From positions 1,178,402 through 1,242,401 of the forward strand of contig NZ_SZWE01000001.1 of the NCBI RefSeq assembly GCF_009669325.1: a stretch of 64,000 bases of DNA, written 5' to 3'. This document shows, piece after piece, positions 36,159 through 55,102 of the stretch. Position numbers and translations under genes: made by a program. Source of the DNA: Roseovarius bejariae (GTDB lineage Bacteria; Pseudomonadota; Alphaproteobacteria; Rhodobacterales; Rhodobacteraceae). Every line of letters begins with the position of its first letter. The first letter of the stretch is position 1. The notes beneath the pieces are model-generated. The model saw only the letters and a list, made by a program, of their open reading frames with translations. It did not search any database and was not told the DNA's origin.

Positions 36159-36160
36159 GA

Positions 36161-37198: not shown

Positions 37199-37287
37199 TT
37201 ATCTCCCTTTTTCACAGTCTGACTGTGATTTTAACGGGAGCTCGACCTCTGAATAGGGGCAGCCCAATTACGCATGCTCTGGGCCGG

Positions 37288-37506
37288 TCAGGTTCGCAAT
37301 TCCTGCACATAAGTCACGTAAAAGCCTTTGACCATGCGGTGTTCTTGAAGTCGATCGCCAAGGTTGAACCCGTCGCGTTTCACCGGTGGCTGGAAAATGT
37401 CGAGTCCGCGGTCAAGCACAATCTTCCAGCCAGTATCCGTCACAATGTCCCGCGCATGGGCTGAACTGCTACCATCGAAAGCCCACGTGAATTCGACGCC
37501 TGTTCC
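37288..37506 (-). pseudogene. 3' fragment of a gene ending in an MIT_C-like (PLD-fold) domain
   Basis: Reading leftward from about 37506 to the stop at 37288, the product is a tail of about 70 residues: GVEFTWAFDGSSSAHARDI, VTDTGWKIVLDRGLDIFQPP, then FNLGDRLQEHRMVKGFYVTY. GW-I-L-RGLDIFQ followed by a short C-terminus is the signature I associate with the MIT_C phospholipase-D-like domain. The upstream part of the frame changes abruptly into IS3 transposase sequence, so the 5' part of the gene was lost at that junction. It lies downstream of the SNF2-like helicase on the same strand and may have been its operon partner. Confidence 0.5.
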
Positions 37507-37990
37507 TGTACAGGCTTCATGTGGTCGTAAAATGTTGATGGGGCAATCAGCAGGTGCTTGCAGATCGGCTCGACCCCAATATCCCTGTTCTCTTCGATGA
37601 AGGCGATCATGTCCTGGACCGGCGGTCGAGCTCCGCCTGGGCAAAATACGCGCTGGCCTTCTTGAGGATCTCGTTCGCTTGCCGAAGCTCCCGGACCTCG
37701 CGTTCCAGGTCCTTGATCCGGGCCCGTTCCTCTGACGTCACGCAATCTCGGCAGCCTGTGTCGGTTTCCTCCTGCTGAACCCAACGCCGCAATGTGTCGC
37801 GGCAGCAGCCGATCTTCGGCGCAATCGCCTTGATCGCTGCCGACTGACTCTCGTAGTTTCCCTGATTGTCGAGCACCATCCGCACAGCTCTCGCGCGTGT
37901 CTCAGGTGAATAGCGGTTCGCTCTGTTGTCTTTTTCCATGGCTCCAATCCTTCCTCGATTTGGAGCCTCCGGAAAACCCGGAGCAGTTCA
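37507..37990 (-). mobile_element. IS3-family insertion sequence fragment (orfA plus start of orfB)
   Basis: The end at 37990 matches an IS3-type terminal repeat (TGAACTGCTCCGGG reading leftward). Inside are an intact orfA (37607-37939) and the start of orfB (IEENRDIGVEPICKHLLIAP then STFYDH), which stops at the junction with the MIT_C-like tail near 37506. The DDE catalytic domain is missing. Confidence 0.75.
37607..37939 (-). CDS. IS3-family transposase OrfA
   Basis: This 110-residue protein has the IS3 OrfA helix-turn-helix ([40 protein letters not shown]) and the C-terminal leucine zipper [20 protein letters not shown]. In a complete element programmed frameshifting would join it to OrfB for transposition. 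Here OrfB is cut off after about 35 codons, so this gene is a remnant without a functional partner in cis. Confidence 0.9.
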
Positions 37991-38041
37991 ACGCGCTTGA
38001 GCTGACCTCTCCGCCCCTCGGCACAACTTTGAGCTGGCTGA

Positions 38042-40870
38042 TCAATCGGCGGCGAAGAGTCTGAACAAGCCATGCGACAAGATTGGAGCGCTATGGTCAA
38101 ACATATTGACGAGATCTTGAGACAATAGCTTGGTGCGCATGTCGGCCGCCTGTTGCCGCGCTTCGGCTCGCCGTTTCTCTGCTGCTACTTGTCCTTCGAG
38201 CATCTGCTGTAAATCGGAATTCTGGGCCGCGCTTTTCCGCTGAGTAAGACGCTCCGCAGTCACAGCACTCCCCTTGACGAAGACTTCTGTATCTGCCGCC
38301 AAGATCGCTGAACGGGCCTGAAAATCTTTGATCACCCCCGCTCTCTTCTCCGCGAGCCTGTCCTTCTCTGACTTGTGGAATTTTCTGAAATGTTCAGAAA
38401 ATACTTCGGTGGCTCGCTCGCATTTTGGCAATCGAGGAGATCTGGAGCCTGTTCTGGGTGTTCCTTTACCTGAGAGCAGATCTCTCAGACCATCTCGATC
38501 CACGTCTCTGGTTTCGCCGTCATCCTCGATCAAAGTTGCCTCTACATAGAGAGATGCGTCGAAACGAAGCCGGAGCCACCGGCGATCAGCCTCAAGACCA
38601 GCGAGCAGCCATTCGTCGATACGTCTCAAGCCGTCGACACGACCATGCTCCCATAGGTCATCTTCCAGCTCACGCAGGCGCGGGTCAGGCAGGTCTGATC
38701 CGGGGAGGAATGCCGCTACCGAGATCGCTACTGTGCAGCCTGCACAAGAGTCCCGTAGTGCTCCTTCCGGCAATTCTACTCCGATCGGGTGTTGCGGCGG
38801 AGTAGCGAAACGAGTTTGAGCGTCAGAACGTAGTTGGCCTATCAGATCATCATGCAGAGCATCCCCTGTGGAAAAGAAACGTGCTCTTCTTCCAACCTGA
38901 TCTCCCTTCAGCATTACGTCCTTTTTCGGATCATTGAGACGAGAACGTGTAGTTCGTAGAATTTCCCCGTTTCTTTCATCCATGTCGCCCAAGACGATCG
39001 GGGGTTCCGTTCCGAATGGCGGGTATTTGAGCAATCGGACCTTTTCGTTGTCTGCGCTCGACAAGGGATGAACACGAAACGCGCCACAGTTCGACAAAAG
39101 ATTTATGACAGCCACGGCATCCCTTTCACCAGCCCGGACGAAATCCAGCATTGCCTCGGGAGCCGCTTGAGGGAGTGCTTTCATTGAGAGGAGCTGCTTT
39201 GATTGCTCCACCCCTGAGCTCAGTTCCTCCAACAGCGCCAATTCGTCTTCGTGGTTTCCCGAGAGACCACCTGCCGCTCTCGCTACGGCATTTTCAAGAC
39301 GCGAGATCGTTTCATCATCAAGATAGGGCAACGGAGCATCAAAAACGCCGAGACGATCCATGGCTTGCAAAACCCGGTGATCCGGTGACTGCTCCACCAC
39401 CATTCGCCAGATCGTGATGTCCCCGATAGATTTCCCGTCCAGAGTCCTTTTGAACCCGCCTGGACGTAGTCGATCCAATCGGCCAATAAGTTGGTCGACC
39501 CTCGCAATGCTCCAAGGCAGATTGTAGAAAATCAGATCGTCAGCGAAATGATGCAGGTTCAACCCCGCTTCGACCACCTCTTCCAGAATAAGAATCCTTG
39601 CGCCGCTGTGGACCGCGCCAACGACGTCCACCATGCTCGTATGCTGGCCACCTCGCATCGTCGCGATCAGATCATCCTCTTCAAGTTCGGGGAACATTCG
39701 GGAAAGCCTTGTCTTCAGGCTGTCGACTGTCGGTGTATCCCCGGCAACAATAATGGCACGCCGGTCTGCATCCCTCTCCCAGATACTGAGCAGCGTATCG
39801 CATAGGTCCTCGAAGAGTGTGTCCCCATAGTCGGCCACCGAAGCGTCAACACACTCACGGGTGTCGTTTCCGAGCACCGAAAACGTGTCGTGTCTGAGAG
39901 CTCGAAGCATGGTTTCCCTTGCCCAGAACAGCTGTCTGGCTGGTTGCCAGGGGGCACCATCAACTTGCAGATTGCGCGACAGGTTTTCTCGTCCAAGGCG
40001 CTTGTTTGCCAAATCGACGCGCGCCATTTCAGCGTCGTTTGGTTTGGAAAGTATGGTCTTGATCCTGCGCTTGGGAGCGGTCTCCGGCCATGCTGCCCGT
40101 GTCTGGCGTAGGATGCGACGGTTCTTGGTTACCGCCCACATTGCGGCTTCAGCAGACAATTTATTGCTGGAGACCATCTCGTAGCAGTCGCGACCGAGCT
40201 CTTTCAGGACGTCGTCCAAATTCTGTCCGGATTGATTTGCAAGGTTCGCGCGATCCGTCTCAATCATTCCAAAAACCGCACGCGCCCAGTCGGGGCTACC
40301 CAGTCTTGGAGTTGCTGTCAGTAGAAGGACGTGTCTGAACCTGCTGCCATTCCGCCCGGAACGGCAGAGACCAGAGAGAAACCTCGCTTGTTCGAGGCTC
40401 AAAATGTGAGGCTCATCAACGATTAACATATCGTAGTTGGCAGGGTCTGGCACAACCGGTGTCGACCTGACCAGGTCACTCTTGATGATGTGGACGTATC
40501 CGCCACCGCCAATGATTTCGAGTTCTGTGTCTTCAGTCCACATTTCTGCGGAAATATGTCCGCGAACAGAGAGCTCGACCTGCCACTGATAGCTGATCCT
40601 TCGCGGTGCAACTATGGCAACCCGTAATGACGGATCCTCACGTTTCAGGACGTTCAACACCATGAGCGCCTGAACCGTTTTCCCCAACCCAACCTCATCT
40701 GCGATCAAATGCCTGATGTCCGGGGCATCAAGGACTGTCAGGACATTCTGTATCTGATGCTCATAAGGGTCGGCGGCAACTCCCAACGCTCCCAGCCTTT
40801 CCCACGACAAGGCATCCCGAACTCTTCGGAGAGCCAATGTGCTTACGAGAAAACCTGTATAATCATCCAT
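38042..40870 (-). CDS. SNF2-like DEAD/DEAH-box helicase (DrmD-like?) of the divergent defence cluster
   Basis: This 942-residue superfamily 2 ATPase has Walker A ADEVGLGKTVQALMVLNVLK (57-76), a variant Walker B LIVDEPHIL (150-158, DEPH rather than DEAH), LLLTATPRLGSPDW, and in the second RecA lobe ILILEEVVEAGLNLHHFADD and VDQLIGRLDRLRPGG. A long C-terminal region, partly coiled coil (about 870-920), has no recognised domain. It is the second gene of a minus-strand pair, 12 bp behind the 971-residue gene. Class 1 DISARM contains an SNF2-type helicase (DrmD), so a similar role with DrmA/DrmB is likely, but equivalence is not proven. Confidence 0.8.
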   Translation of the reverse strand: MDDYTGFLVSTLALRRVRDALSWERLGALGVAADPYEHQIQNVLTVLDAPDIRHLIADEVGLGKTVQALMVLNVLKREDPSLRVAIVAPRRISYQWQVELSVRGHISAEMWTEDTELEIIGGGGYVHIIKSDLVRSTPVVPDPANYDMLIVDEPHILSLEQARFLSGLCRSGRNGSRFRHVLLLTATPRLGSPDWARAVFGMIETDRANLANQSGQNLDDVLKELGRDCYEMVSSNKLSAEAAMWAVTKNRRILRQTRAAWPETAPKRRIKTILSKPNDAEMARVDLANKRLGRENLSRNLQVDGAPWQPARQLFWARETMLRALRHDTFSVLGNDTRECVDASVADYGDTLFEDLCDTLLSIWERDADRRAIIVAGDTPTVDSLKTRLSRMFPELEEDDLIATMRGGQHTSMVDVVGAVHSGARILILEEVVEAGLNLHHFADDLIFYNLPWSIARVDQLIGRLDRLRPGGFKRTLDGKSIGDITIWRMVVEQSPDHRVLQAMDRLGVFDAPLPYLDDETISRLENAVARAAGGLSGNHEDELALLEELSSGVEQSKQLLSMKALPQAAPEAMLDFVRAGERDAVAVINLLSNCGAFRVHPLSSADNEKVRLLKYPPFGTEPPIVLGDMDERNGEILRTTRSRLNDPKKDVMLKGDQVGRRARFFSTGDALHDDLIGQLRSDAQTRFATPPQHPIGVELPEGALRDSCAGCTVAISVAAFLPGSDLPDPRLRELEDDLWEHGRVDGLRRIDEWLLAGLEADRRWLRLRFDASLYVEATLIEDDGETRDVDRDGLRDLLSGKGTPRTGSRSPRLPKCERATEVFSEHFRKFHKSEKDRLAEKRAGVIKDFQARSAILAADTEVFVKGSAVTAERLTQRKSAAQNSDLQQMLEGQVAAEKRRAEARQQAADMRTKLLSQDLVNMFDHSAPILSHGLFRLFAAD

Positions 40871-40882
40871 CTCGCATGGCCC

Positions 40883-43798
40883 TTAATGAACTGCGCGGTA
40901 TCGTAGCGCGGCGTATCTCACCGCCCGAGCTGTAAAACGGTCAGAAGCAAAACGCACCAATAGGTTCCGCCAGTCAGGGTTTTCAACCGTCTGAGACGGT
41001 CGAAGAAAAAGCGATAAGAGCGCTCTCAGGGCTTCGGGCGGAATGTGACGACCGGTCCGCTTCACATCCATGTGGCGGCTATTCAGTTCCGAAATGAGGT
41101 CATCGAAGCCGAGGTCCAGATACGGCAACTGAAGCAGCCCGATAGACCGAGTAATAGGCAATACCTTTCGAGCGAGCGGGCGCATAAGGTCGGCTTCCCG
41201 TGCATCCTTTACTGCCTTTTGCCACTGACCGTCCAAAACGATGCAATCACCGTCGACGGATGTGCCGTTGGCCTCTTTCAATTGAGACGCGAGATTCGTC
41301 CAAGCTTCGTTGACGGCATCATCCAATGCCGGCCACTCGTCTCCGTCCGGGATGACAAGCACCGACACCGATGGGAGCACTTTTCTGAACTCAATAAGGA
41401 GGAGCTTTGAAAGCACTCTCAACTGCTCTTCAGATAGCTCATCGAAGTTGTCGTTTCCGGCGGCAAGCTTTCGCTCCAGTGAGTAGCGAACCAGACTTTC
41501 ATGAAAGCCTGAATTTGACAAATCCAACTTTCTTTCGACCGAAAGCCAGTCTTTACCGCATATTGCGTCTACAATTCCAGCTTCAACGGATGCACCAACC
41601 CGACGCCTTATGCCATCGGCTACCAGACTCGTGGAATTCCCGGACTGCCAGGCGACAAGTGCTTCCGATGCTGCGATCAAGCCGTCGGCGTTATCTACAG
41701 AGTTTCTGTTCTTTCGGATACGAAGCGAACTTGCAGCGCCGATGTCCGTCAGACTTAAATGCTCAGAGTTGACGAAGAACCGCCCCAGAGTCAGCTCTTG
41801 GTCGCCTTCGACGTCTGGCAGCAGGAGTTCCGCCAACAAATCGCAATTCTCACCTTCTGAAAGGGGCAAAACCGGGTTACCGCCGGCATCAAAGGTAATG
41901 CTTTTGATGCTCCGGCCGTCGTCAGAGATCCATGTTCTTTGGCTTTCATCAAAGACCCAGTCGAGATGTCGGGCCGGCAGCAAGCGAAAGGTTGACGCAA
42001 GGCCTTCGACCTTGGCCTCAATCGTCGCCGTTTTCCCGGAAAAGCTCCATCTTCGCGCAGTCTCTCGGATCTGGCTCATTGAATCGAGCGCGAAGCCGAC
42101 AGCTCCTGGCAGAGTTTCAACGTAAATTTCGCTGCTGATGTGGTTCCCTTGGACATCCATCAGCGTCACATGAACGGTCGCTCCATCCAGTTTTGAAGGT
42201 GCCCTTACATCGAGTGAGCCCAGTCCAGCTCCCACGTCGTTCAAGGTAAGCTGTTCGGGCGAAACATCTATCCGAAGCGGCTCGAAGCTATTGACAGGCC
42301 TGAACGCCAGCTTCGCGACTTGCTTGCTACGACCGTCCGAGAAATGAAGGCTACACGGTTCGTCTTGTGTTTCTACGCGAACCCAATCGCCGATCGGTAA
42401 AGCACGCGCGGACAGAAAATCATCGGTGGTAGATCGGACCTCCAAATCCACAGATCCGAGTTGCGCCTTTACCCAAAGGCCATGTCCCTCAACTTGGGAT
42501 ATTTCTTCATCTGATTGAACAAGCGTAGCTCCACCGAAAAATTCGACGAGTTCTTTCTGCGCAATCAGTATCCCGTTTGCCGATAGCTTCGCGGCACCCT
42601 CCGATGAATTTGCCCTCATCCCAAAAAGCGAGGCGCCCCAGTCCTCCGGGTCTGCGTCGGCCAAGCGCAATTCGAAAAATGCAGCATCGTCTGAGAGCCG
42701 CGACCCCGAAAGGATCTGAGGTTGATAGCCATCGCTTTCCACATCGACGAACAGGAGGTTTTCTGAAGGCAAAACAAGGCTCGCTATCGTCTCGCTGATA
42801 TCGGTTATTCCGTTGATGTCCGGAGCCGGCAATGCTCGCGGGCGGCCAAGGAATATCAATCCTCCGGAGAGGAACTCTCGAAACGGGACAGAACGTCCGG
42901 CCACGCTCAGGATTGCGTCCCTCGACTCGCCTCCGGTAAGTGTGTCGACGTGCGCAAGCTGCACCGCATCAAGTGAAGGCCCGCGAATAGCAAGTCCCAC
43001 AGGCTCATCATCATGCATCAGCAATTGGTAAAGGGGCTTCGGAAACTTGCGCGGCGCGTGATCATTAGCTTGTGTCGCGGCACGCGCCGCCAGTGTCAGC
43101 CGCCGGACCTCTTGGTTTCCGCGGAGATCTTCCTCAAGCCGTTCCATGAAAGTCTGCTCAACCTGAAGGCCTTTCACGGATCCATCAGCGAGCGCTCTGA
43201 CAATGGCAAGCGCGAGGTTTTCATCCCAGAGCCACGCTTCCAAGCGCTTTGAAGTCAGGCCGGCCGCAATTTCTCGCAATGCAGACACGAATGCTGCATT
43301 GAAAGCAACTGAGCTGCTGGCCCGAAGAGAACCCCTTACCAAGCGCGCAAGCGGACTATGGATCTCACGAGAAACCAACGCATTTCTGATAGGCCACGCG
43401 ATGTGCCCAAAAGCTTCGGACCAACGATCATTGAGCGGAGTTGCGATGTTGTAATCCCTGCTCAGCAGCTTGAATACCGCCGTTATTTCTGGCCGCTCGG
43501 CGAGGCCAATTTCAGCCCCCAGTCCGCGCTCAGCAAACCCCCAGAATTCGGTCCCCGTGCCTCGATATTGATAACCGAACTCGGTCAAAGCCACGCCGAG
43601 TGAAAGTCGGTAAGGCAGCCAGGTTTCTGACCTGAAACCTACCGCGCTTCCTCGAGTTCCCACGGCACGAATGAGCTCGGCAATCTCGGCCGGCAAAAGC
43701 CCGTGCTCAATCAGGAAAACGTGCTCTTCGGCACGATCTCTTGAAAGGGCCTTAAAATGCTCGCTTAATCGTTCTTCAAATAAAGAAAGTCGTTCCAT
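40883..43798 (-). CDS. Large uncharacterised protein (971 aa) coupled to the SNF2-like helicase
   Basis: I do not recognise a family. The N-terminal ~200 residues are helical with GFRSETWLPYRLSLGVALTE, YQYRGTGTEFWGFAERG, and EAFGHIAWPIRNALVSREI, a set of aromatic motifs likely to form a compact domain. Residues about 430-700 look beta-rich (e.g. GDWVRVETQDEPCSLHFSDG, ATVHVTLMDVQGNHISSEIY), possibly Ig-like or OB-like sheets. No P-loop, nuclease or methylase motif, signal peptide or membrane helix is evident. It is the first gene of the minus-strand operon and its start is 149 bp from the divergent UvrD-like gene. It is probably a scaffold or recognition subunit (inference). Confidence 0.7.
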   Translation of the reverse strand: MERLSLFEERLSEHFKALSRDRAEEHVFLIEHGLLPAEIAELIRAVGTRGSAVGFRSETWLPYRLSLGVALTEFGYQYRGTGTEFWGFAERGLGAEIGLAERPEITAVFKLLSRDYNIATPLNDRWSEAFGHIAWPIRNALVSREIHSPLARLVRGSLRASSSVAFNAAFVSALREIAAGLTSKRLEAWLWDENLALAIVRALADGSVKGLQVEQTFMERLEEDLRGNQEVRRLTLAARAATQANDHAPRKFPKPLYQLLMHDDEPVGLAIRGPSLDAVQLAHVDTLTGGESRDAILSVAGRSVPFREFLSGGLIFLGRPRALPAPDINGITDISETIASLVLPSENLLFVDVESDGYQPQILSGSRLSDDAAFFELRLADADPEDWGASLFGMRANSSEGAAKLSANGILIAQKELVEFFGGATLVQSDEEISQVEGHGLWVKAQLGSVDLEVRSTTDDFLSARALPIGDWVRVETQDEPCSLHFSDGRSKQVAKLAFRPVNSFEPLRIDVSPEQLTLNDVGAGLGSLDVRAPSKLDGATVHVTLMDVQGNHISSEIYVETLPGAVGFALDSMSQIRETARRWSFSGKTATIEAKVEGLASTFRLLPARHLDWVFDESQRTWISDDGRSIKSITFDAGGNPVLPLSEGENCDLLAELLLPDVEGDQELTLGRFFVNSEHLSLTDIGAASSLRIRKNRNSVDNADGLIAASEALVAWQSGNSTSLVADGIRRRVGASVEAGIVDAICGKDWLSVERKLDLSNSGFHESLVRYSLERKLAAGNDNFDELSEEQLRVLSKLLLIEFRKVLPSVSVLVIPDGDEWPALDDAVNEAWTNLASQLKEANGTSVDGDCIVLDGQWQKAVKDAREADLMRPLARKVLPITRSIGLLQLPYLDLGFDDLISELNSRHMDVKRTGRHIPPEALRALLSLFLRPSQTVENPDWRNLLVRFASDRFTARAVRYAALRYRAVH

Positions 43799-43947
43799 AT
43801 ACCGCCAACTCGGCCAAAAGCCGGTCTCCCCGGAGCGAACTGTCCTACAAGAACCACATGAAATTCAATCGAAAAAATCCTTGAAGGGCATCTGAATTGT
43901 TGAAACTGTGACGTTCGAATTAGGGGCAGTAAACCTTTGAAACTCAA
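43799..43947. promoter_or_regulatory. Divergent promoter region of the defence cluster
   Basis: This 149-bp AT-richer gap separates the two divergent operons and must hold both promoters. TTGAAA-type -35-like hexamers occur at 43908 and 43937, but no -10 pair is convincing by eye. Shared control of both halves is implied by the arrangement. Confidence 0.45.
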
Positions 43948-46245
43948 ATGACACCAAGACAGATTCTCGCTGATTTTCTGCGGCACGAGGTATTTTCACT
44001 TGGATCACTATCACGATCCAAATCCATCACGGTGCTTGCGGTCAAAGCGCAGACACTTGGCATCGAGAAAGACATTTCCCACACCTTGGCGATCGAAGTC
44101 CTCGATGACTTGGTTCTTGCCGGCGATATTGGTGCATGGACCTCCTTTGGAGAGCCGATGCTCCTCTTCCTTGATCGCCGAGCGACGGCGATTGATGAAC
44201 AGAACACGGTAATTTTCGGGGGGGCGCCCGCGGATGGAGAACTTTTTGGACTTCTCCGCCGAATTGCAACGGATACTGTATTCGAGCAGGAAACGTCCGA
44301 GTTTTCGCCAAATCTCTCGGAAGTGGAAACACAGTCCATTGCGGCGCTGGTTAATGATGGCAAATGGTCGCCTTCAGTTTCACTGTCACCAGCCCTCAGA
44401 AAGGCTCTGCTGCATCTGGGCTGCGAGCCGGACGCTAAACTCTCGGCCCCTGCGGACGACATCCTGAAGGAGTGGTTACTAACGCTCACTCCAGCCTCCC
44501 AAAGCGGCGGCTTGGACGTCAGCCAGCAGATTGTTGTTTCTGAAGATCAGAATGCCCGACTTGTCGTCACTGCGGGACCTGGCTGCGGCAAGACACACAC
44601 AGCAAGTGCGCGGGTCATTGAATTGGTCAAATCCGGCGTGAGCCCTGCAAGTATCCACCTAATTACTTTTACCCGTGTGGCTGCACAGGAGATCTCTGAA
44701 AGGGTCACATCTGCCCTTGCCGATCAGGTGTATGGCGCGGGAATACAAAGTTTCACGCTTGATTCTTTTGCATGGCATCTGATCGGTTCTATCGAAGATC
44801 AGGCCGCGTCGGGTGGTTTTGACCGGTCTATACGCCGAGCATCAGCTCTTCTGTCAGCCCGAGAACAGCGCTTGCTCGACTGGGTCGGACGTATTGGTCA
44901 CCTGATCATTGACGAAGCTCAGGACGTTGTCGGCATCCGACAGGAACTCTGCACACAGCTGATTGCCGCGTTACCTGCATCAGTCGGGGTCACTGTATTC
45001 GGCGATTGGGCACAGGCCATTTACGGAGCTTGGTCTGACCAAAGCAAGAAAACCTCGTCATCCGCGAGCAATCTGCACTCACATCTTTCGGCGTCTGAGG
45101 ACTGGAAAAAGCTTGAACTCAGCTTCAATCACCGCGCAGGGTCATCAAAACTAAAGGCGCTGGCCAGCAACGCGCGAGAAGCCCTCGGCGACACAGAATT
45201 GCCGAACAAAGAACGATACCTTTTGGTGCGCGAGATGCTTGAGAACGCGGCGTCGACGCAGGGCGCGGACTTGTTGGATCAGCGCATTCCGTGGAGTTTT
45301 GACAATCTGATACTGACCCGAAGTCGCATGGCGGCAGAAACGGCCTCGGCACGTTTGTCGCTGCGCGGCCGACCACACCGGCTGAAGTTGTCTGGCCATA
45401 CTCAAGTAGTCGAGCCACTGATTGGTGCTATTTGTGCTGGAAAGACAGCCGGCGAACTGCTGACACAGAGCGATGTCGAGCAGCGAATGGAAGCGCTTTC
45501 TCCAGCACCCTTTGGATGGACGTCAGATGAAGCCTATGATCTTCTGAAGAGCGTGGCTGGGACGGGCAAAGCTGTCCCAAGACTGAGTGACATAGTCGCT
45601 AAGATCGAACAAAGTCCTATACTCATCGCTCATGACTACATCGGACAGTCAGGCCCTCTGATCGGCTCAGTCCATGGCGCGAAAGGCAAAGAAGCGGAAG
45701 ACGTGTTCTTTCTGATGCCGCCCATCCCGGATCACGAAGACGTCGACTGGGACGAAGAAGCACGTGTCTTGTTCGTCGCCGGAAGTCGAGCATCCAAACG
45801 ACTCCATCTCGGAAGAACGCGTCCGGTCTTCGGAAGCGTGAGGACAGACGGAAGCAGGTGGATTTCCGGGCGAGGCGGCGGACTGGCGCTTTCGGGGAAT
45901 GATGGCCTATCGCCTCTGCCCGGCCGTGACGCGGTCGACGCTATATGGGAAGCAACTTTTGATCAGCCCCGCTGCACTTTCAGAAGGGAGAGTGTCGATT
46001 CTGAATGGCATTTGGTCCTCCAGAACGGAAAAGCTGTCGCGATAGCAATTGATCCACTCGCGGAGAACCTCAACTATCTGGCAGATGGCGCCCTCAGTCT
46101 TCCCCTTGGATCCCTGAGAATTGCGGGATCGTCCACCGTAGTAGCTACGCGGCGGGATGGAAAACCAATCGGAGTTTCGCTCCTGCCGGTTCTACAGGGC
46201 ACCGCTAGAAGCGGCTCCCAATTCGATGAAAAGGGGAATGCATGA
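43948..46245 (+). CDS. UvrD/Rep-like superfamily 1 helicase with N-terminal extension
   Basis: This 765-residue protein has about 200 residues of unassigned N-terminus (MTPRQILADFLRHEVFSLGS onward, with EKDISHTLAIEVLDDLVLA) and then a UvrD-type ATPase: Walker A VVTAGPGCGKTHTASARVIE (about 206-225), LITFTRVAAQEISERV, Walker B HLIIDEAQDVVGIRQEL, FGDWAQAIYGAW, and motif V/VI-like VHGAKGKEAEDVFFLMP and RVLFVAGSRASKRLHL. The fold is complete. It is the first gene of the plus-strand operon and overlaps drmA by ATGA. A UvrD-like helicase is not part of the standard DISARM gene set. Confidence 0.87.
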   Translation: MTPRQILADFLRHEVFSLGSLSRSKSITVLAVKAQTLGIEKDISHTLAIEVLDDLVLAGDIGAWTSFGEPMLLFLDRRATAIDEQNTVIFGGAPADGELFGLLRRIATDTVFEQETSEFSPNLSEVETQSIAALVNDGKWSPSVSLSPALRKALLHLGCEPDAKLSAPADDILKEWLLTLTPASQSGGLDVSQQIVVSEDQNARLVVTAGPGCGKTHTASARVIELVKSGVSPASIHLITFTRVAAQEISERVTSALADQVYGAGIQSFTLDSFAWHLIGSIEDQAASGGFDRSIRRASALLSAREQRLLDWVGRIGHLIIDEAQDVVGIRQELCTQLIAALPASVGVTVFGDWAQAIYGAWSDQSKKTSSSASNLHSHLSASEDWKKLELSFNHRAGSSKLKALASNAREALGDTELPNKERYLLVREMLENAASTQGADLLDQRIPWSFDNLILTRSRMAAETASARLSLRGRPHRLKLSGHTQVVEPLIGAICAGKTAGELLTQSDVEQRMEALSPAPFGWTSDEAYDLLKSVAGTGKAVPRLSDIVAKIEQSPILIAHDYIGQSGPLIGSVHGAKGKEAEDVFFLMPPIPDHEDVDWDEEARVLFVAGSRASKRLHLGRTRPVFGSVRTDGSRWISGRGGGLALSGNDGLSPLPGRDAVDAIWEATFDQPRCTFRRESVDSEWHLVLQNGKAVAIAIDPLAENLNYLADGALSLPLGSLRIAGSSTVVATRRDGKPIGVSLLPVLQGTARSGSQFDEKGNA

Positions 46246-49200
46246 CCATTGGTGAAAAGCAAATGGATGCACGCCAGCGTGTTGTGGATCGGCTGAAAGA
46301 AGACTTGGTGGGCCCGTATAGCAAAGATGAAATTCTTCGCGACAGCCCAGCCGAGGTTTATTTTTCAGGAATACTCTATGCGCAAAAGACCCCCGTTTCG
46401 AGCATCGAGCCTGACGACGACACGATAGTCAACGATGACGATGACGAAACATCAGACAAGACCCCACCAAACACGTTTCGACCAAGCTCCATGGGAGTTT
46501 CGTTTGCGGTTGCGCCAAAGGACGGCGACGAAACACTGATCAAGATTTCGGTTTCGGTTGGCACCTACCAAGCGAACGCGACGGAATCCCCGAGCAAGGA
46601 AAACCGCTTTAATTGGCATCGGCACCAAAAGCGGGAAACCTTCTCAGTCGAAGTGAACAATCATACTCCAAGTGAAATCAAGCCAATACCGCAGATACCC
46701 GGGCTGGGATATTGGTTGCGGAGCAAGAGGCATCAGGACCTCTTCCTCGTAACGGTCATGCTGGTGAACCAGCAGACGAATTCTAAGTCGGCGGACACAG
46801 TTGCGCGTGATACAGCAAACTTTTATCAGGTTGGTTTTGATGTAACGGCGGATCCTGATTTTGGTCTCATTGTGCCCAAACCGGCCGTTTTTTCAAAAAG
46901 CTCTGATCCTGAAATACAGTCGAATGCCATGCTCTATAGAGACGCCCCGGAATATGCGGTCGGGCACACCTGTTCCGTGAGCTGGAGTCAGGATCAGGAC
47001 CGCGCGGTTACGCTGTCTTCAGAATGGGTGCCAACGGTAGAAGTTCCAATCGCGAGCGCAAGTGGCGATGAAGAGTTTTTCGGCAATCTCGTCGATCGAG
47101 GGGAAAATTCGGTCCTTGGATCGCAATGGCTGTCCGAAGCTGGCGGCTCTGAAATCACGGCCGGTCTCGCGGAATTTTGCCAATGCTACTCTGATTGGAT
47201 CGTTTCGCAGGAATTAAGGATCGCCTCCTTACCCTCTGAACACCATGAAACCGCCCTAAGGCACTTAGATACCTGCCGGCAAGCATTGAACCGAATGTTG
47301 GAAGGTGCAAAACTACTGGCCAACGATCCTGAAGCCCTGTTGGCCTTCAGGCTCGCCAACCGAGCTATTTGGCTCCAGAACGAATGGAAACGTCGAGGCG
47401 ACCCAGAAATCCAACCTCTTGTGTGGCGACCATTTCAGTTGGCGTTTGGCCTTCTGTGTCTGAAATCCACCAGCGACCCAACAGACACAGACCGCGCGGT
47501 TATGGACTTGCTTTGGTTCCCTACCGGCGGCGGCAAGACGGAGGCATACCTTCTCCTTGCAGCATACACTGTTTTCTTACGTAGGCTGAAAGCCCGCGGC
47601 GCCACAGACGGCGCCGGCGTAACGGCTTTTATGCGCTATACGCTCAGGCTGCTGACCGCCCAGCAATTTCAACGCGCGGCGTCCATGATCCTCGCATGCG
47701 ACATGCTGCGCCGCGGGGATGAAAAATGTCCGGGCGTTCTACTTCCTGATCATTTCCAATCGGATGCTTCTATCTCTATCGGTCTTTGGGTTGGAAAGGA
47801 CACCAGCCCGAATAAAGTGGAAAAGGTGGGCGAGGACGGTTCGCCTGCGCAGGTAGCGGATTGTCCCATCTGCGGCGTGGAACTCGATTGGTCTGTGGAC
47901 GAAAACGGCGAAAGAGTTCTCGCAACTTGTACCGATGTGACCTGTTCAGCCAACGGGGACGCTGGGCACCTACCCTTTTGGACGGTTGATGAAGACGTCT
48001 ACCGCGAACTTCCTTCACTGCTGATAGGCACGGCGGACAAGTTCGTCCAAATTGTCAGCAAACCAGAAACAGGCAGGCTTTTCGGATTAGCAGACGCCCA
48101 CCTGAACCCACCAGATCTGATCATTCAGGACGAACTGCATCTAATCTCTGGGCCATTGGGGACTATGGCGGGGCTTTTGGAAACAGCCATCGACGCGCTT
48201 TGTTCTCACAAAGGACATAGGCCAAAAATCATCGGCTCCACGGCGACAATCCGGCGGGCAGACGATCAGATCCGATCACTCTTCAACCGGGAATCTTCTC
48301 AATTCCCCCCACCGGGCATTGACCAGTCGAATTCCGGGTTCGCATATACAAAAAAAGGCAGCCCGGGCCGTCTATATGTGGGGGTAACGTCTGCCGGGCG
48401 GACGGCCAGTTACATTTATCAGGCCATCTCTGCCTCTCTCTTTCAGGCGGCCTCAGATCTGAGCTTCGTCGGCGCTGACGCGGACAAGTATTGGACGCTG
48501 GTGGGCTATTTCAACTCGCTGCGGGAACTCGGCAGCGCGTCGATCATCATGCAGGACGACGTTACGCACAGCATTCAGCTGATTTCTGAGCGTCGAGCGG
48601 AAACAGAAAGAAAATTGCAGCCACCCGTAGAACTTACCAGCCGCGTCAAGTCAGACGAAATTAAGGACAAGCTGAAAGAGCTCGAACTGGACCGAAGCAG
48701 CGGCGCGGCAGCCGATATCGTATTGGCCTCGAACATGATCTCCGTCGGGATGGACATCAGGCGCCTCGGCCTGATGCTCGTCAACGGTCAACCGAAAACC
48801 ATTGCCGAATACATCCAAGCAACGAGCCGCGTTGGACGCTCCAACGTGCCTGGTCTCGTGGTGACGCTCTACAACGCCAACAAGATGCGAGACCGAAGCC
48901 GATATGAGAACTTCCCAACCTGGCATGGGGCGCTTTATCGTGATGTCGAAGCAACCGGGGTGACACCATTCGCCCCAAGAGCGCGGGATAAGGCGTTACA
49001 CGCGCCTTTCGTGGCTATGGTCCGACACCTCGTCCCGAAAATGCTTCACTCACCAAACGAGGCCATGAAGTATCGGGCACAGCTCGAAGATATGATCGAT
49101 AGAATCTGTGCGCGCGTCTCAACCATCGACGAGCCCGAAGCGGCGGCAACGCGGAAAGAACTCATGGAGTTCCTTGAAAACTGGATTCGCCGGGGAAATC

Positions 49201-49370
49201 TGAAGAGATATTGGGACGACTGGTCAGACGCAGCGCTGTTGATCTCCGCTGAAAAAGCGGCAGAAAGCCAAGCCTCAAATTTCTCGAAAGGCCTCGCCAG
49301 AGCGACACCGAACACATTGCGGTCGGTGGAGGCCTCCACCAAATTTGTGGTTACAGAACGAGAAACTTGA
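46242..49370 (+). CDS. drmA: DrmA-like DISARM helicase
   Basis: This 1042-residue helicase has the DrmA layout: a beta-rich N-terminal region with FRPSSMGVSFAVAPKDGDET, Walker A LLWFPTGGGKTEAYLLLAAY (near 425), a cysteine-containing insert (CPICGVELDW, CTDVTCSANG), DE-box LIIQDELHLISGPLGTMAG (near 628), IIGSTATIRRADDQIRSLF, and in the second lobe VLASNMISVGMDIRRLGLML then YIQATSRVGRSNVPGLVV. DrmA with DrmB forms the core DNA-translocating unit of DISARM, which restricts phage DNA partly without methylation. It overlaps the UvrD-like gene and is 10 bp ahead of drmB. Confidence 0.9.
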   Translation: MTIGEKQMDARQRVVDRLKEDLVGPYSKDEILRDSPAEVYFSGILYAQKTPVSSIEPDDDTIVNDDDDETSDKTPPNTFRPSSMGVSFAVAPKDGDETLIKISVSVGTYQANATESPSKENRFNWHRHQKRETFSVEVNNHTPSEIKPIPQIPGLGYWLRSKRHQDLFLVTVMLVNQQTNSKSADTVARDTANFYQVGFDVTADPDFGLIVPKPAVFSKSSDPEIQSNAMLYRDAPEYAVGHTCSVSWSQDQDRAVTLSSEWVPTVEVPIASASGDEEFFGNLVDRGENSVLGSQWLSEAGGSEITAGLAEFCQCYSDWIVSQELRIASLPSEHHETALRHLDTCRQALNRMLEGAKLLANDPEALLAFRLANRAIWLQNEWKRRGDPEIQPLVWRPFQLAFGLLCLKSTSDPTDTDRAVMDLLWFPTGGGKTEAYLLLAAYTVFLRRLKARGATDGAGVTAFMRYTLRLLTAQQFQRAASMILACDMLRRGDEKCPGVLLPDHFQSDASISIGLWVGKDTSPNKVEKVGEDGSPAQVADCPICGVELDWSVDENGERVLATCTDVTCSANGDAGHLPFWTVDEDVYRELPSLLIGTADKFVQIVSKPETGRLFGLADAHLNPPDLIIQDELHLISGPLGTMAGLLETAIDALCSHKGHRPKIIGSTATIRRADDQIRSLFNRESSQFPPPGIDQSNSGFAYTKKGSPGRLYVGVTSAGRTASYIYQAISASLFQAASDLSFVGADADKYWTLVGYFNSLRELGSASIIMQDDVTHSIQLISERRAETERKLQPPVELTSRVKSDEIKDKLKELELDRSSGAAADIVLASNMISVGMDIRRLGLMLVNGQPKTIAEYIQATSRVGRSNVPGLVVTLYNANKMRDRSRYENFPTWHGALYRDVEATGVTPFAPRARDKALHAPFVAMVRHLVPKMLHSPNEAMKYRAQLEDMIDRICARVSTIDEPEAAATRKELMEFLENWIRRGNLKRYWDDWSDAALLISAEKAAESQASNFSKGLARATPNTLRSVEASTKFVVTERET

Positions 49371-49380
49371 GGGCCATGGC

Positions 49381-52233
49381 ATGAAAGAAGTTGGAACCAT
49401 TCGCAGGAGTCAGATCATCGGACCCTTTGGGCCCGGTTCAATTGTCGACTTCAGACTTCCGTCTGGGGCACTTCTTTCCGGCGTCATGCAGGGCCTCGAA
49501 GCCTGGGACGGCTACAGCGGTCCGAACAAAGGGCTGAATGACCCAAATCTGATCCGGGAGCCACGCCTCGAAGCCAAACTCGGGATCAAAGGGTTTCGCC
49601 CCCCATTGATTGGGCAATACACCTTCCAGAACGAAAAGCGTGATCGCGTCCTCCCGGTGCGTCGCTTCCCGGACTGGCAATCCTGCCCAGATTGCCACGT
49701 GATACAGAAATCAGGAATGTGGGCACCGTCGCGCGGTGGAGACAGTCTTCACTGCGGCCATTGCGCGGGCCGACCCGCGGTTGTGCCCGTGCGTTTTGTC
49801 TCGATCTGTGAACACGGCCACCTCAATGACTTTCCGTGGGATAAATGGATCAACCACAAACACGACTGCAAACAACCACTCTTGCAGCTGATTACCGTTG
49901 GCGCCGGGATCAATGGACTACGGCTCAAATGCAAAGGGTGCTCTGAAACGAGATCGATCGCCGAAGCCTTCTCTCCAAACGGCATACCAGGACACGCGTG
50001 CAGAGGGGGCCGCCCTTGGCTCGGCGACTACGAGACGGGTTGCAAAGCACCTGCAAGGATGACGCAAAGAGGCGCGAGCAACATCTATTTCTCAGTAGTC
50101 GAGAGCGCGATCACGTTGCCGGATTGGCGAGCTCATTTCTACGACCGACTGGGCGCAAACCTCAGCACGATGGAAAGCATCGACCATGACCATAATTTGC
50201 TGCTTGCCATTATTCAGAATTTGGTTTTGCCAAGCTGGGATGGCAGTGAATGCGCTGACGAAATTTGTGATTTGTATCTCAAAGCCAAGAACAAAGACGC
50301 TGATGATGCTACAGCTGACCTTAAGATGGCCGAGTTTCAAATGCTTACGAAGGACACACGCGGAATTGAGTTCGGAAAGAAGGACCTTCTCAACGCGGCT
50401 CAGGAAATTCCCGAAACTCTGCGTGGGCTCGTGTCCTTTATCTCGAGTGTCGAACGCCTACGCGAGGTCCGCGCGTTAACTGGCTTCACTCGCCTCAAAG
50501 CGTCAGTCGCAGGAAAGCCGGAGCCTTTGCCTCTTTCGAAAAGCTCGAAAGATTGGCTACCCGGAATAGAAGTGAACGGTGAAGGTATCTTCGTCGCACT
50601 GGATCAGTCGGCAATACAATCTTGGGAGACATCTCCCGCCGTAGAAACGCATGTCGGCCACCTTCAATCGCAGTGGATGGAAGCCAAACTTGCGGCAGGA
50701 GAGAACCCGACAAGCCTGCCAGAGGGACTGAGTGCCCGCTACATACTGATACACACTCTTGCGCATGCACTCATTGCTGAACTTTCGTTGGAAAGTGGAT
50801 ACTCGTCGACATCACTCCGGGAACGGCTTTACGTCGGCTCCGACATGGCTGGCCTATTGATCTACACATCCACGTCCGATGCTGACGGCACGATGGGTGG
50901 GCTATCACGACAGGCTGCCCCATCGCGATTTGAGCATAGTTTCTTGCGGGCCGTGAGCTCTCAGGAACTTTGCTCAGCAGACCCGCTTTGTAGCGGCGGT
51001 CTCGCGAGCGACGGAGCGTCCGGCAATCACGCCGCCTGTCACAGCTGCGTTTTCCTGCCCGAGACAAGCTGTGAGAGCTTCAACTCTTTTCTTGACCGAA
51101 CCCTGCTCTGTGCAAGCGACTTTGCCTTTTTTCGAAACTTATCCGAGGCCAATCCTCGAAAAGAAACGGTGCCACTTTCTGCGAAAAGTTCGACTGTTTC
51201 CATTCCAACACAAGCCAATCGCGCTGGAGCTGCAAGGGAATTGCAGGTTCCCGCTTTCAAAGACGAACTGGGAATTATTGAGTTCGGCAACACGCTCCGT
51301 TCTGATGGTCCCATTAAATTGGACTTCAGCAGTATTGGGTTTGCGACGCCTTCCGGAATGCTATTGCTATCCAGACATATCCGCAGTGCCGTGGATCGGG
51401 GGATTGTAACAGGCCACATAGGCACAGAACCAAACGACTATGCCGCGAACGTCGGTTTCTTCAAGCACTGTGGGATCGAGGTGCCCCGCCGACAAGCGTC
51501 CGGCGGAGAGAACTATCTACCACTCCAAGCGGTTGATCTGGGCAAATGGCGTAGTGATGCCAAAAAAAGCTCCTTGAGCTTTGGCGAGTTGGCTAATCAA
51601 AGAGTTGGCAGAATGGCGCGACTGATCGCGCGTGACACGAGGGGAAACCTTTTCGACCTGATGAAGTATTGCCTTCGCGAGATCGTCAGGAATGCCTTGG
51701 AACACGGCGACGGGGACACGATGTGGATTACCGGTCAATACTGGCCCGCGCGAGACACGGTCGAGCTCTCGATTTTCGACAATGGCATCGGCATCCTGAG
51801 ATCTTTGCAACGAAACGAGAAATTCTCAAACATTGGAGACGACTTGAAGGCCCTCCGCCTCGCAGTTCTGCCAAGCACATCTGGCGTTCACAAACAAGAA
51901 AGCTCAAATGCAGCCGGCCCAGAAACGACAGATGACACATGGAACAACTCCGGGTTCGGTCTTTATGTCACCAGTCAGCTCGCCAGAAGAAAAGGTCATT
52001 TCGTGATCGGCTCTGGCTCGAAGTTTCTGCGGATCGGGTCGCACAGATACGAGAAAGGAGATTTCTCTTTGTCGGGCACTTACGTGTCCATGAATTTCTC
52101 TGTGGCGGAACTTCAAAGAGCGGCGGCTGAGGTTGGCACGATCGTCAAGAAAGGCGAAAGTATTGCTCAACGCTATGTATCCAAAGATGCCGATGCCTTC
52201 GCATCAGCCGCATCCAAAGAGATCTTTCAATGA
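49381..52233 (+). CDS. drmB: DrmB-like protein fused to STAS-like and GHKL ATPase modules
   Basis: The start MKEVGTIRRSQIIGPFGPGS at 49381 is the normal DrmB beginning and gives about 950 residues. Residues 1-610 are DrmB: FPDWQSCPDCHVIQ and LHCGHCAGRP zinc pairs, VSICEHGHLNDFPW, and the DUF1998 block LIHTLAHALIAELSLESGYS. After CHSCVFLPETSCESFN the protein continues unusually: a STAS-like segment (IKLDFSSIGFATPSGMLLLS, about 640) and a GHKL ATPase with N box REIVRNALEHGD, G1 LSIFDNGIGILRSL and G2 WNNSGFGLYVTSQLARRKG. Standard DrmB ends at the DUF1998 region (about 600 residues). The extra modules could give ATP-dependent signalling control. Confidence 0.88.
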   Translation: MKEVGTIRRSQIIGPFGPGSIVDFRLPSGALLSGVMQGLEAWDGYSGPNKGLNDPNLIREPRLEAKLGIKGFRPPLIGQYTFQNEKRDRVLPVRRFPDWQSCPDCHVIQKSGMWAPSRGGDSLHCGHCAGRPAVVPVRFVSICEHGHLNDFPWDKWINHKHDCKQPLLQLITVGAGINGLRLKCKGCSETRSIAEAFSPNGIPGHACRGGRPWLGDYETGCKAPARMTQRGASNIYFSVVESAITLPDWRAHFYDRLGANLSTMESIDHDHNLLLAIIQNLVLPSWDGSECADEICDLYLKAKNKDADDATADLKMAEFQMLTKDTRGIEFGKKDLLNAAQEIPETLRGLVSFISSVERLREVRALTGFTRLKASVAGKPEPLPLSKSSKDWLPGIEVNGEGIFVALDQSAIQSWETSPAVETHVGHLQSQWMEAKLAAGENPTSLPEGLSARYILIHTLAHALIAELSLESGYSSTSLRERLYVGSDMAGLLIYTSTSDADGTMGGLSRQAAPSRFEHSFLRAVSSQELCSADPLCSGGLASDGASGNHAACHSCVFLPETSCESFNSFLDRTLLCASDFAFFRNLSEANPRKETVPLSAKSSTVSIPTQANRAGAARELQVPAFKDELGIIEFGNTLRSDGPIKLDFSSIGFATPSGMLLLSRHIRSAVDRGIVTGHIGTEPNDYAANVGFFKHCGIEVPRRQASGGENYLPLQAVDLGKWRSDAKKSSLSFGELANQRVGRMARLIARDTRGNLFDLMKYCLREIVRNALEHGDGDTMWITGQYWPARDTVELSIFDNGIGILRSLQRNEKFSNIGDDLKALRLAVLPSTSGVHKQESSNAAGPETTDDTWNNSGFGLYVTSQLARRKGHFVIGSGSKFLRIGSHRYEKGDFSLSGTYVSMNFSVAELQRAAAEVGTIVKKGESIAQRYVSKDADAFASAASKEIFQ

Positions 52234-52297
52234 TCTGTAGCGGCGTCTTCCGCAGCCCACTGAGAACGCCGAAGCCACAAAATATTAGCCGACGGTT

Positions 52298-53614
52298 TCA
52301 CAGCGTCACCGTCTCGAAATGGCCATAGAGACCCGCCAGATCCCTATGGTTGACCCGGAATTGATTTCGCTTCTTAATCTTTCCGTTCTCGACCTTAACC
52401 GCTGGATCGAGATACGCTTTCCCTTCATGGATAAGCCTCATGAACTTGAAGAAGTCAGTTCCGGTCCCAAACTGCACTCGATCCGCATATCGGTAACTCT
52501 TGGGTTTGCCGCTGGATTCTGACGGAACATATGCCGCTTGGGCATGTTTTCTGTTCCAATGGTTCAGCAAATTGGCGAATTCCCAGCCGGCAGCGACATC
52601 GTCATCTCCGTTTACGAGCAGGACTTTACCACCAAGATCATCGATCTTTCCATTTGCCGCATCGTAACCTTCAAGTACCATCCGAACGCCCGTTCGGGCG
52701 CTTGCAGGCGCAAGGTTTCGATAGATGCCCCCGAAATTTCTTCTGTTCGGACGGCCTTTCGTATCATCGTAGCCGTAGGAAGCCATAAATCCGTGAAAAT
52801 CGTCGGAGTAGCGGCCAACCGTCGGCTCCGGCGTCATCAGGGTCACCGGCGATGTCGCCCGCAGCGAAGCAAAATCACGAACTGCGTATTGCTTCAGCTC
52901 CCATCCCAGGAAATCCGGCTCGGCCACTCCATTAGGAATTATTCCCAATTCAGCTTCTAAGGTATATCCACCGCCATTCGGGGCGGCATACGGCCTGACT
53001 TCACCATCGGAGTGCATGCGTTGCCCAGCGATCCACCCCTTCTGATGAATTCTTTTTAGTTCAGACAGCAGCTCAGATTTCGGATCTCTGCCAGATGCAG
53101 AGATGAGTTTGGTGAGGTTCAGGAAAACGCCAATTTCGGGGAGGTCACCGATTGTGTCGAGTTCCCTGACGACGCCGCTTTGCACTGCGGAAACATACCC
53201 AAGTATCAATCCGGATGGGACTACGCCGAAAAAAAGAACCCTTCCGGGATCCCGGCTGGTCATGAGATCATTTGGCGCATGAGCAGCTCCTCGAAGGAAC
53301 CCGGACATCCGGACTTCGGGATATTTTGGATAGAGTATCAACTGCGCATCGGGAGCCCGTGAAGAACCTTCGGCATGAATCCATTCGAATTTCACGGAAG
53401 CCTTATCTCGTCGGCGGACTGATCCGGCTCTTTGCTCGAAATCTGTTTCGACCTCACCATGGGGCAGCACGTTCAGAGCTTCGAAGCCACCGCCGAGATA
53501 AACTTGATTTTTTGAGTTGTCATTCGGAGCAAGCCGCTTCGCATAAAAACGGGTCACCCCGTATGCTCGCATCACGTCGACCAGCTCTTTCAACGATGCA
53601 AATGAGTGTCCCAT
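52298..53614 (-). CDS. MvaI/BcnI-family type II restriction endonuclease
   Basis: This 438-residue protein has an unassigned N-terminal half (MGHSFASLKELVDVMRAYGV, VRRRDKASVKFEWIHAEG) and a C-terminal MvaI/BcnI catalytic domain: RIHQKGWIAGQRMHSDGEVR, NGGGYTLEAELGIIPNGVAE, catalytic PDFLGWELKQYAV (Asp...Glu-x-Lys), MTPEPTVGRYSDDFHGF. MvaI and BcnI cut within CCWGG and CCSGG as monomers; the exact site here cannot be read. Its start overlaps the remnant tail of vsr, and it follows vsr and the m5C methyltransferase on the same strand, completing a restriction-modification-repair cassette. Confidence 0.88.
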   Translation of the reverse strand: MGHSFASLKELVDVMRAYGVTRFYAKRLAPNDNSKNQVYLGGGFEALNVLPHGEVETDFEQRAGSVRRRDKASVKFEWIHAEGSSRAPDAQLILYPKYPEVRMSGFLRGAAHAPNDLMTSRDPGRVLFFGVVPSGLILGYVSAVQSGVVRELDTIGDLPEIGVFLNLTKLISASGRDPKSELLSELKRIHQKGWIAGQRMHSDGEVRPYAAPNGGGYTLEAELGIIPNGVAEPDFLGWELKQYAVRDFASLRATSPVTLMTPEPTVGRYSDDFHGFMASYGYDDTKGRPNRRNFGGIYRNLAPASARTGVRMVLEGYDAANGKIDDLGGKVLLVNGDDDVAAGWEFANLLNHWNRKHAQAAYVPSESSGKPKSYRYADRVQFGTGTDFFKFMRLIHEGKAYLDPAVKVENGKIKKRNQFRVNHRDLAGLYGHFETVTL

Positions 53615-54021
53615 CCTCGAATCTCTTCAAACTCAATATCTGACGTCAGCCATTTCTCAAGCTGATCGAATAAATGGGAAATATCCAGCCTGCCAGGACC
53701 TCGAAGCGCGCATTCTCAGACGATAGCAGTGCGCCAGCCCAAGTCCAGCTGTTCATTGAGGTTGCGCCGGTCCCGATCCACATTTGCCCAGATCTTCTTC
53801 TGCCAGAATTCTCTGCGCGTTTCCGGAAGCCTGAAAAGGCTGCAATCGTGCCCGTGGAAAAAGCAACTTCTTACATCAATGATCGCTCGGTAGCGCTTGA
53901 GAACGATATCTGGTGTTCCTGGCAACGCACGATCGTGCAGACGGTATCTGAAACCGAGGTGATGGAGGCCTTTTCGAACGATTATCTCCGGCTTCGTGTT
54001 CCTCGCCTTTATCGCCGCCAT
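53590..54021 (-). pseudogene. vsr: Very-short-patch repair endonuclease (Vsr), interrupted by a TGA codon
   Basis: Vsr nicks T:G mismatches that arise from deamination of the cassette's own m5C. The readable part begins MAAIKARNTKPEIIVRKGLH and includes PGTPDIVLKRYRAIIDV, SCFFHGHDCSLFRLPETRRE and NLNEQLDLGWRTAIV. At 53716-53718 a TGA stands where the family has TGG (Trp of VWECALRG); the same frame then reads on as ECALRGPGRLDISHLFDQLE to a stop at 53590. The last ~42 residues are thus lost unless read through. No ATG precedes the expected N-terminus ([12 protein letters not shown]), so the true start may be a CTG overlapping the methyltransferase end. Confidence 0.82.
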
Positions 54022-54052
54022 GTTGCGGCTTCGCGTCTGAGTGTCGTGAACG

Positions 54053-55099: not shown

Positions 55100-55102
55100 G
55101 CG

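Follow-up and report, generated by a model that had tools for sequence, protein, structure and literature searches.

A conserved divergent five-gene cluster of DISARM-like composition, with a probable defence role, on a Tn7-like transposon of Roseovarius bejariae

A divergent cluster of five genes in Roseovarius bejariae raises the question of whether the DISARM proteins DrmA and DrmB here belong to a defence system of a different composition, and what their partners might contribute. The cluster occupies positions 38042-52233 of a 64,000-nucleotide stretch of contig NZ_SZWE01000001.1 (hereafter the window) and is built of two opposed operons, one encoding a 971-residue protein (p971) and an SNF2-like helicase on the minus strand, the other a UvrD/GajB-like helicase, DrmA and DrmB on the plus strand (Table 1). 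This layout had been proposed in an initial annotation, and the open reading frame (ORF) list of the window confirms the positions of all five genes and the 149 bp between the operons. On balance, we favour the reading that the cluster, borne by a Tn7-like transposon, represents an unnamed class of DISARM-like defence against phages (perhaps plasmids too), in which p971, DrmAB, SNF2 and UvrD would act together and 5-methylcytosine (5mC) would serve as the self mark. Of this reading, the parts that we infer are defence activity, a sensor role for p971 and the 5mC mark.

The protein search with p971 gave 20 relatives among the 7992 candidates with most shared words that were scored, and a single pass over genome contigs yielded 28 loci. 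Loci of the DrmAB type number 26 (L021-L046, including L032, a contig with p971 and SNF2 only). All five genes, in the order -DrmB -DrmA -UvrD +p971 +SNF2, are present in 21 of these 26; since the loci were collected through p971, this fraction tells how often p971 has the other four genes, and not the reverse. The 21 include L041, in which p971 is broken and just two end pieces are left, and L046, which has two UvrD genes. The incomplete loci comprise L022 and L032, cut by contig ends, L034 with a piece of DrmA and no DrmB, L037 with no DrmAB within the 4.7 kb seen on that side, and L043, which is without UvrD and DrmA and keeps a piece of DrmB. Plasmids and one family genome contribute three more complete loci (L002, L003, where the SNF2 gene spans the plasmid start, and L015); L014, L016 and L017 duplicate L027, L030 and L035 and were not counted.

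DrmAB-type relatives of p971 span several alphaproteobacterial families. Among 394 genomes of the family, p971 has a match in eight, five of the DrmAB type and three of the Druantia type (G101, G302, G348), and the five best of the 13 genomes with a DrmA match are the five with a DrmAB-type p971. Matches in 70 genomes of the genus are limited to three: the window, one partial and one weak. It is very likely that the five genes form a real conserved defence unit. The co-occurrence check suggested in the initial annotation returned the same genes in the same order, and its claim of one system stands as far as the genes occur together and divergently in 21 of 26 relatives, but less well for a closed set, as parts of it occur in other combinations.

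All three proposed helicases, SNF2, UvrD and DrmA, are borne out, with motifs I (Walker A) and II intact in each. The SNF2 protein (motifs GLGKT, DEPH and QLIGRLDR) is best matched by the PADLOC models DpdE (9.9e-30) and DrmD (3.9e-27), and also by RapA and BrxH models, but lies far under the cut-offs that NCBIfam sets for DpdE and DrmD (85.5 bits against 610 for DrmD). The N-terminal ~190 residues of the UvrD-like protein have no Pfam match at E<=1 (191 residues scanned), and its reading frame overlaps that of drmA by ATGA, as had been noted. DrmA scores 881.6 bits with NF038325, under the model cut-off of 950, and is matched to the DrmA structure 7s9v at E 5.6e-137; DrmB reaches 459.6 bits with NF038324 (cut-off 240), so that both initial calls hold. 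The DrmB ORF opens at TTG 49345 (962 residues), although the in-frame ATG 49381, 10 bp past the DrmA stop, is the likelier start judging by the sequence. Its fusion partner, announced but not named in the initial annotation, is a GHKL ATPase (PF02518, residues 773-889) with N-box, G1 and G2 present (EIVRNALEH, DNGIG, GFGL); a STAS-like stretch read by eye ahead of this domain has no Pfam support. DrmB has matches in 69 plasmid records, none of which covers 80% of the protein, and all of the best 40 of the 69 end by residue 631. The intergenic region presumably holds the promoters of both operons.

We have also addressed the relation of the cluster to DISARM, whose gene sets for classes 1 and 2 reportedly go back to Ofir 2018. 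Common to both is the DrmA and DrmB core with DUF1998 as a separate gene. The SNF2-like helicase recalls class 1, with the reservation of the low DrmD score given above, and the linked C5-cytosine methylase of the DrmMII kind recalls class 2, yet it is 1.8 kb off, on the other strand and beside an endonuclease. Unlike DISARM, the cluster has no DrmC and no DrmMI, its DrmA is short and its operons are divergent, and it adds p971, UvrD and the GHKL fusion on DrmB. Scans of nine proteins encoded between 33.7 and 55.1 kb (Pfam, PADLOC, NCBIfam) detected no match to DrmC or PLD, in agreement with the initial annotation. Its other statement, that a DISARM methylase is lacking, is valid within the five genes but not for their surroundings, where the DrmMII-like gene is found.

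An ordinary class 1 or 2 DISARM with drmC and the methylase lost or diverged is, in our view, very improbable. DrmA and DrmB do match DISARM models, SNF2 resembles DrmD and the nearby methylase matches DrmMII; however, no DISARM model fits p971 or UvrD, the DrmA score stays under the model cut-off, and the set is kept across families and is therefore not one decayed DISARM copy. The DrmA tree points in the same direction. It was built with 41 proteins, excluding ORFs of up to 900 residues (L022, L034, L101) and the duplicates L014, L016 and L017, and it has long branches. In this tree the window groups with the DrmAB-type p971 loci in a fully supported 28-row clade, separate from the rows of DrmMI loci (L093, L094, L107, L109, L110) and from L095 and L108. 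At the base of the clade are four rows, L098, L102, L103 and L046, three of them without a p971 gene in the fetched sequence; p971 is absent from the genomes of L102 and L103 according to a genome search, and for L098 from the fetched locus sequence. L046 carries p971 though its DrmA groups with loci lacking it, so the presence of p971 does not match the DrmA tree exactly, which points to module exchange.

Residue 55 of the window DrmA aligns to residue 217 of the 1331-residue DrmA in the DrmMI locus L093, leaving the window copy without ~160 N-terminal residues of the long class 1 form. This N-terminal part has been described as EVE-like (PMC12458937), and the start of the alignment indicates that the window DrmA lacks it; most of the trigger loop region (PMC9142583) is probably lacking as well, as far as the alignment tells.

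Other known systems share only some of these features. ARMADA type II also brings together YprA-family, BrxHII/RapA-like and GajB-like helicases and protects without growth arrest (PMC12458937). ARMADA has, however, a PglX-like methylase and a YprA helicase with a fused Vsr nuclease (PMC12458937), whereas in the window DrmA and DrmB are split in the DISARM manner, the place of the ARMADA methylase is taken by p971, next to SNF2, and no PglX match was seen in library scans of window proteins. The GajB-like helicase of ARMADA type II has a RelE-like N-terminus (PMC12458937); that of the window UvrD, as noted, has no Pfam match. The Figure 1 legend of Bell 2025 refers to many uncharacterized DISARM-like classes, and the accessible text assigns them no gene set (PMC12458937); the YprA clade of these classes probably includes the window DrmA. 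As the initial annotation had supposed, no name for the five-gene set was found in the literature searched, of which subscription papers were mostly outside coverage; Bell 2025 was the one closely related account to emerge from it.

The protein p971, termed a large unknown in the initial annotation, is assigned to no family in Pfam, PADLOC or NCBIfam, and its profile has no match to solved structures at E<=1. The possibility of a hidden methylase was rejected, as no methylase family was matched in these three libraries. The AlphaFold2 model (mean pLDDT 83.4, pTM 0.64) predicts a helical N-terminus (1-250), an alpha/beta part (255-412), immunoglobulin (Ig)-like sandwiches at ~415-502 and 505-612, further beta structure (615-680) and a helical C-terminus (690-970), with limits read off the predicted secondary structure. 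A fold search with the model gave Ig/Fn3-type matches, mostly over 415-612, corresponding to at least two Ig-like sandwiches. Such a predicted layout suits a recognition or scaffold protein.

In loci with neighbours examined, p971 adjoins a gene for a YprA-family helicase or its remains, except in L032, where the contig is too short, and in L037 (the survey excludes L132, L133 and H3). This helicase is not always DrmA. In L004, L005 and L047, p971 and SNF2 stand opposite a gene of 316-348 codons, a NERD-helicase and a helicase of the DruE1 type, for which L005 was the locus scanned with the DruE1 model; the small gene has a weak DruD1 match in two loci (1.5e-5 and 0.0025) and none in L047. This is a second unnamed arrangement, located at 11188-26214 in L004 and 15785-30329 in L005. 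The initial annotation had named the regular finding of the minus-strand pair without DrmAB as evidence against its proposal, and these three loci bear that out in part.

A homologue (p971c, ~944-966 residues) lies beside DruD and DruE in L018-L020, L048 and L112, the last being a Nitrosococcus plasmid locus. Profile comparison of p971 and p971c gives a probability of 99.9 percent (E 3.6e-32, 716 columns). DruA is upstream in four of the five loci and downstream in L048; in L018 the homologue (955 residues) is thus between DruA and DruD-DruE, likewise in L019, L020 and L112. At the same position, L113 from a Pseudomonas plasmid has separate DruB and DruC, and the L018 homologue matches neither the DruB nor the DruC model. 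The p971 homologue therefore links the window to Druantia type I, from which the window differs in having no DruA, DruD or DruE; its DrmA matches DrmA models and DruE3 at just 2.9e-4, and is not classed as DruE.

These combinations bear on a rival explanation, namely that p971+SNF2 and UvrD+DrmA+DrmB are two separate modules, each active alone and sharing just the intergenic region. It is favoured by the pairing of p971+SNF2 with DruE1-type genes, by UvrD-DrmAB-NERD loci without p971 (L103, L135) and by the discordant DrmA of L046. Nevertheless, p971+SNF2 faces a YprA helicase module in complete loci, and 21 of 26 loci retain the divergent order, so we regard full independence as rather doubtful. 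The genes look like exchangeable modules, not a closed five-gene machine.

We also considered DruH of Druantia III (9tud), which resembles p971 as a large protein with Ig-like domains beside a YprA helicase and has been reported as a likely phage sensor (Wu 2026; PMC13192584). In contrast to this likeness, significant sequence similarity is missing: p971 has no match to NF038336 (the DruH/YjiT family) at E<=10, and a relation tried by profile comparison (hhalign) was not significant, with probabilities of 0.1-4.5 percent. P values for the profile pairs were 0.53 (A2-A4), 0.051 (A3-A4), 0.72 (A2-A5) and 0.009 (A3-A5, the pair with 4.5 percent). Alignment A2 excludes P0007, P0008, P0013, L041 and L048; A4 included L120, a protein from outside the YjiT family, and A5 is without it. 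The L120 protein is not a p971 relative either. Comparison of 51 p971 sequences with ten of DruH gave 0.1, and 0.033 with the roles swapped. Controls with seven other families ranged over 0.066-0.38 for p971 and 0.06-0.8 for DruH, so that the DruH values hardly stand out. In all but one comparison, the best alignments of p971 or p971c with DruH lie on one shared N-terminal diagonal, on which E75/W88 of DruH pair with the invariant E73/W86 of p971 and E74/W85 of p971c; changing these DruH residues reportedly abolishes Druantia III (PMC13192584). DruH is not among the fold matches listed for the p971 model, in a library that may not contain 9tud. The relation suggested by these aligned residues is retained only as a lead.

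The C5 methylase of the window matches PADLOC MTase_II (1.2e-151) and DrmMII (1.9e-134). Its linkage was surveyed by searching 29 p971 records, L023 not included, with the window methylase and p971; L047 and L048, with no methylase match in either genome, were set aside, leaving 27 DrmAB-type carriers. Of the 27, 18 have a C5 methylase no further than ~15 kb from p971, of the Dcm type in 13 (63-74 percent identical) and another C5 methylase in five. A Dcm-type gene (E<=1e-60) occurs anywhere in the genome in 20 of 27 carriers and in 41 of 394 family genomes, sets that differ in taxa and whose members are not independent by descent. Restriction partners vary. An MvaI/BcnI endonuclease adjoins the system in the window, L002, L024, L055 (=L035) and L057 (=L042), and EcoRII is the partner in L037, L045 and L056; MvaI, EcoRII and Dcm act on CCWGG. 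A longer C5 methylase is found in L058-L062, with Vsr too in L059 and L060. The remaining partner set is Dcm-Vsr-GHKL-HNH-SNF2 (L049-L054; GHKL and HNH domains tested in L049). As an illustration, this operon adjoins drmB at 7328-13292 in L049, and five more Roseobacteraceae loci (L050-L054) show the same layout.

Association with three kinds of restriction set, or with the longer methylase, could mean that the five genes are an accessory of the adjoining type II restriction-modification system, boosting or recruiting MvaI/BcnI, EcoRII or GHKL-HNH restriction. We judge this unlikely: the 18 linked carriers agree with it, but the partner endonuclease is not conserved, genome G399 has no C5 restriction set in the 29 kb of flanks scanned, and DISARM DrmAB works with its own methylase (PMC9142583).

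Beyond p971 carriers, C5-methylase matches were found in eight of 12 other DrmAB loci without DrmMI (L096, L097, L098, L100, L102, L103, L106, L135; not in L099, L105, L108 and the decayed L134), and in one of five DrmMI loci (L109, 38 bits; not in L093, L094, L107 and L110). The flanks seen vary in length, and L095, with an untyped large neighbour, and L101, with a DrmA fragment, are excluded. L096, L097 and L100, in which DrmAB comes with a C5 methylase, a NERD-type helicase and a protein of 906-1109 residues of no PADLOC family, may represent a further unnamed class of DISARM-like loci. Plasmid loci of Marinobacter and Alisedimentitalea (L121, 15234-18298; L120, 15493-18107) have, downstream of a DruE-like helicase, a Dcm-type methylase accompanied either by Vsr and a type II endonuclease or by MvaI/BcnI, and C5 restriction partnership may consequently be wider in YprA-type defence.

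Under the reading that we favour, host DNA would be marked with 5mC by the linked methylase, and p971 would be an infection sensor or assembly scaffold partnering the SNF2 motor encoded beside it. Upon infection, SNF2 and UvrD may remodel phage DNA and expose single strands, on which DrmAB would load, as suggested by the report that DISARM DrmAB binds single-stranded DNA and 5' overhangs, methylation having a damping effect (Bravo 2022; PMC9142583). DrmAB would then translocate and either block the DNA or pass it to a nuclease. A candidate for the latter is the NERD-nuclease/helicase encoded after drmB in the subclade with DrmB of ~604-641 residues; elsewhere, as in the window and the subclade nearest to it (L021-L029, L031, L041), which have no NERD gene there, a neighbouring restriction enzyme or a host nuclease might take its place. 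The GHKL ATPase fused to DrmB could gate DrmAB in the window copy.

Conservation in 21 of 26 loci, the coincidence of the five best family DrmA matches with the genomes that have a DrmAB-type p971, C5 methylase linkage, p971-p971c homology with p971c at the DruB/DruC position, the predicted Ig-like region and the published behaviour of DISARM DrmAB and ARMADA type II incline us modestly towards this reading. Several observations weigh against it. In the subclade of the window, none of the five genes encodes a recognised nuclease, and UvrD-DrmAB-NERD exists without p971. Because the loci were gathered via p971, they do not give the frequency of such DrmAB without it. The sensor role is suggested by predicted Ig-like domains and gene position. 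A linked C5 methylase is lacking in nine of 27 carriers (G395, G398, G399, G402, G404, G406, G408, G411, G418), five of which (G395, G402, G404, G408, G418) are on contigs shorter than 21 kb; in L036, from G408, a C5-methylase ORF adjoins NERD. In G399, a single 3.5-Mb scaffold, the sole Dcm-type match is 1.2 Mb away.

More tentatively, p971 may be one sensor or scaffold common to DrmAB and DruE1 motors and distantly related to DruH, linking recognition of phage to helicases that borrow their self mark from the adjoining C5 restriction-modification system; this would make a new class of YprA-helicase immunity. The conserved, testable system ties DISARM to Druantia via a shared non-helicase component, and module swaps could probe infection sensing in YprA-type systems. 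That methylation acts as a self mark can be tested directly, given that the cluster is repeatedly paired with different C5-cytosine methylases.

Table 1. Features of the cluster, its neighbours and the surrounding transposon (window positions)
Feature	Position	Strand	Basis
SNF2/RapA-like superfamily 2 (SF2) helicase (DpdE/DrmD/BrxH-like), 942 aa	38042..40870	-	PF00176 E 4.4e-7
p971, 971 aa, no named family	40883..43798	-	Pfam, PADLOC, NCBIfam scans
Divergent intergenic region, 149 bp	43799..43947		divergent layout kept in relatives
UvrD/GajB-like superfamily 1 (SF1) helicase, 765 aa	43948..46245	+	PF00580 E 8.5e-23; GajB 9.5e-20
DrmA (YprA-family SF2 helicase), short form, 1042 aa	46242..49370	+	NF038325 E 9.3e-265
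DrmB (DUF1998/MZB) with C-terminal GHKL ATPase	49381..52233	+	NF038324 2e-137; PF09369; PF02518
MvaI/BcnI-family restriction endonuclease	52298..53614	-, convergent with drmB	PF15515 E 5.7e-36
C5-cytosine methyltransferase (Dcm/DrmMII-like)	54053..55099	-	PF00145 6.4e-86
Tn7-like transposon bearing the whole cluster, 32,121 bp	28636..60756		related ends, TTAAA on both sides
TniQ/TnsD-like target selector	28834..30687	-	PF06527 E 1.3e-17
TnsA-like	56382-57230	+	22.2 bits, under Pfam cut-off
TnsB-like integrase	57227-59581	+	rve 21.9 bits, under Pfam cut-off
TnsC/TniB	59581-60543	+	TniB 36.8 bits, over Pfam cut-off

The Tn7-like transposon, like the C5 methylase with its MvaI/BcnI endonuclease and the occurrence of p971 beyond DISARM-like systems, had been missed in the initial annotation. 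Tn7-like elements are known to carry defence genes. The ends were chosen by eye; 20 of their first 30 bases are alike, and each is flanked by the 5 bp TTAAA. The TniQ gene is adjoined by tRNA-Arg(TCT) (28548-28624), with TTAAA just past the tRNA, and lies at this end, distant from the tnsABC-like genes. TniQ and TniB score over their cut-offs, and the TnsA- and TnsB-like genes are in the right order and of the right length. An empty site was not found in seven genomes of the genus, in which the best matches comprise the tRNA and left flank only and none continues into the right flank past base 159 of 300. TnsB-like genes also adjoin the systems in L052 and L053 (55-61 bits). In addition to the cluster, the transposon carries a free GHKL/HSP90-like ATPase of 658 residues (33722-35698) with a weak PADLOC match to TmtA (3.3e-4), and an IS110 transposase (36161-37198).

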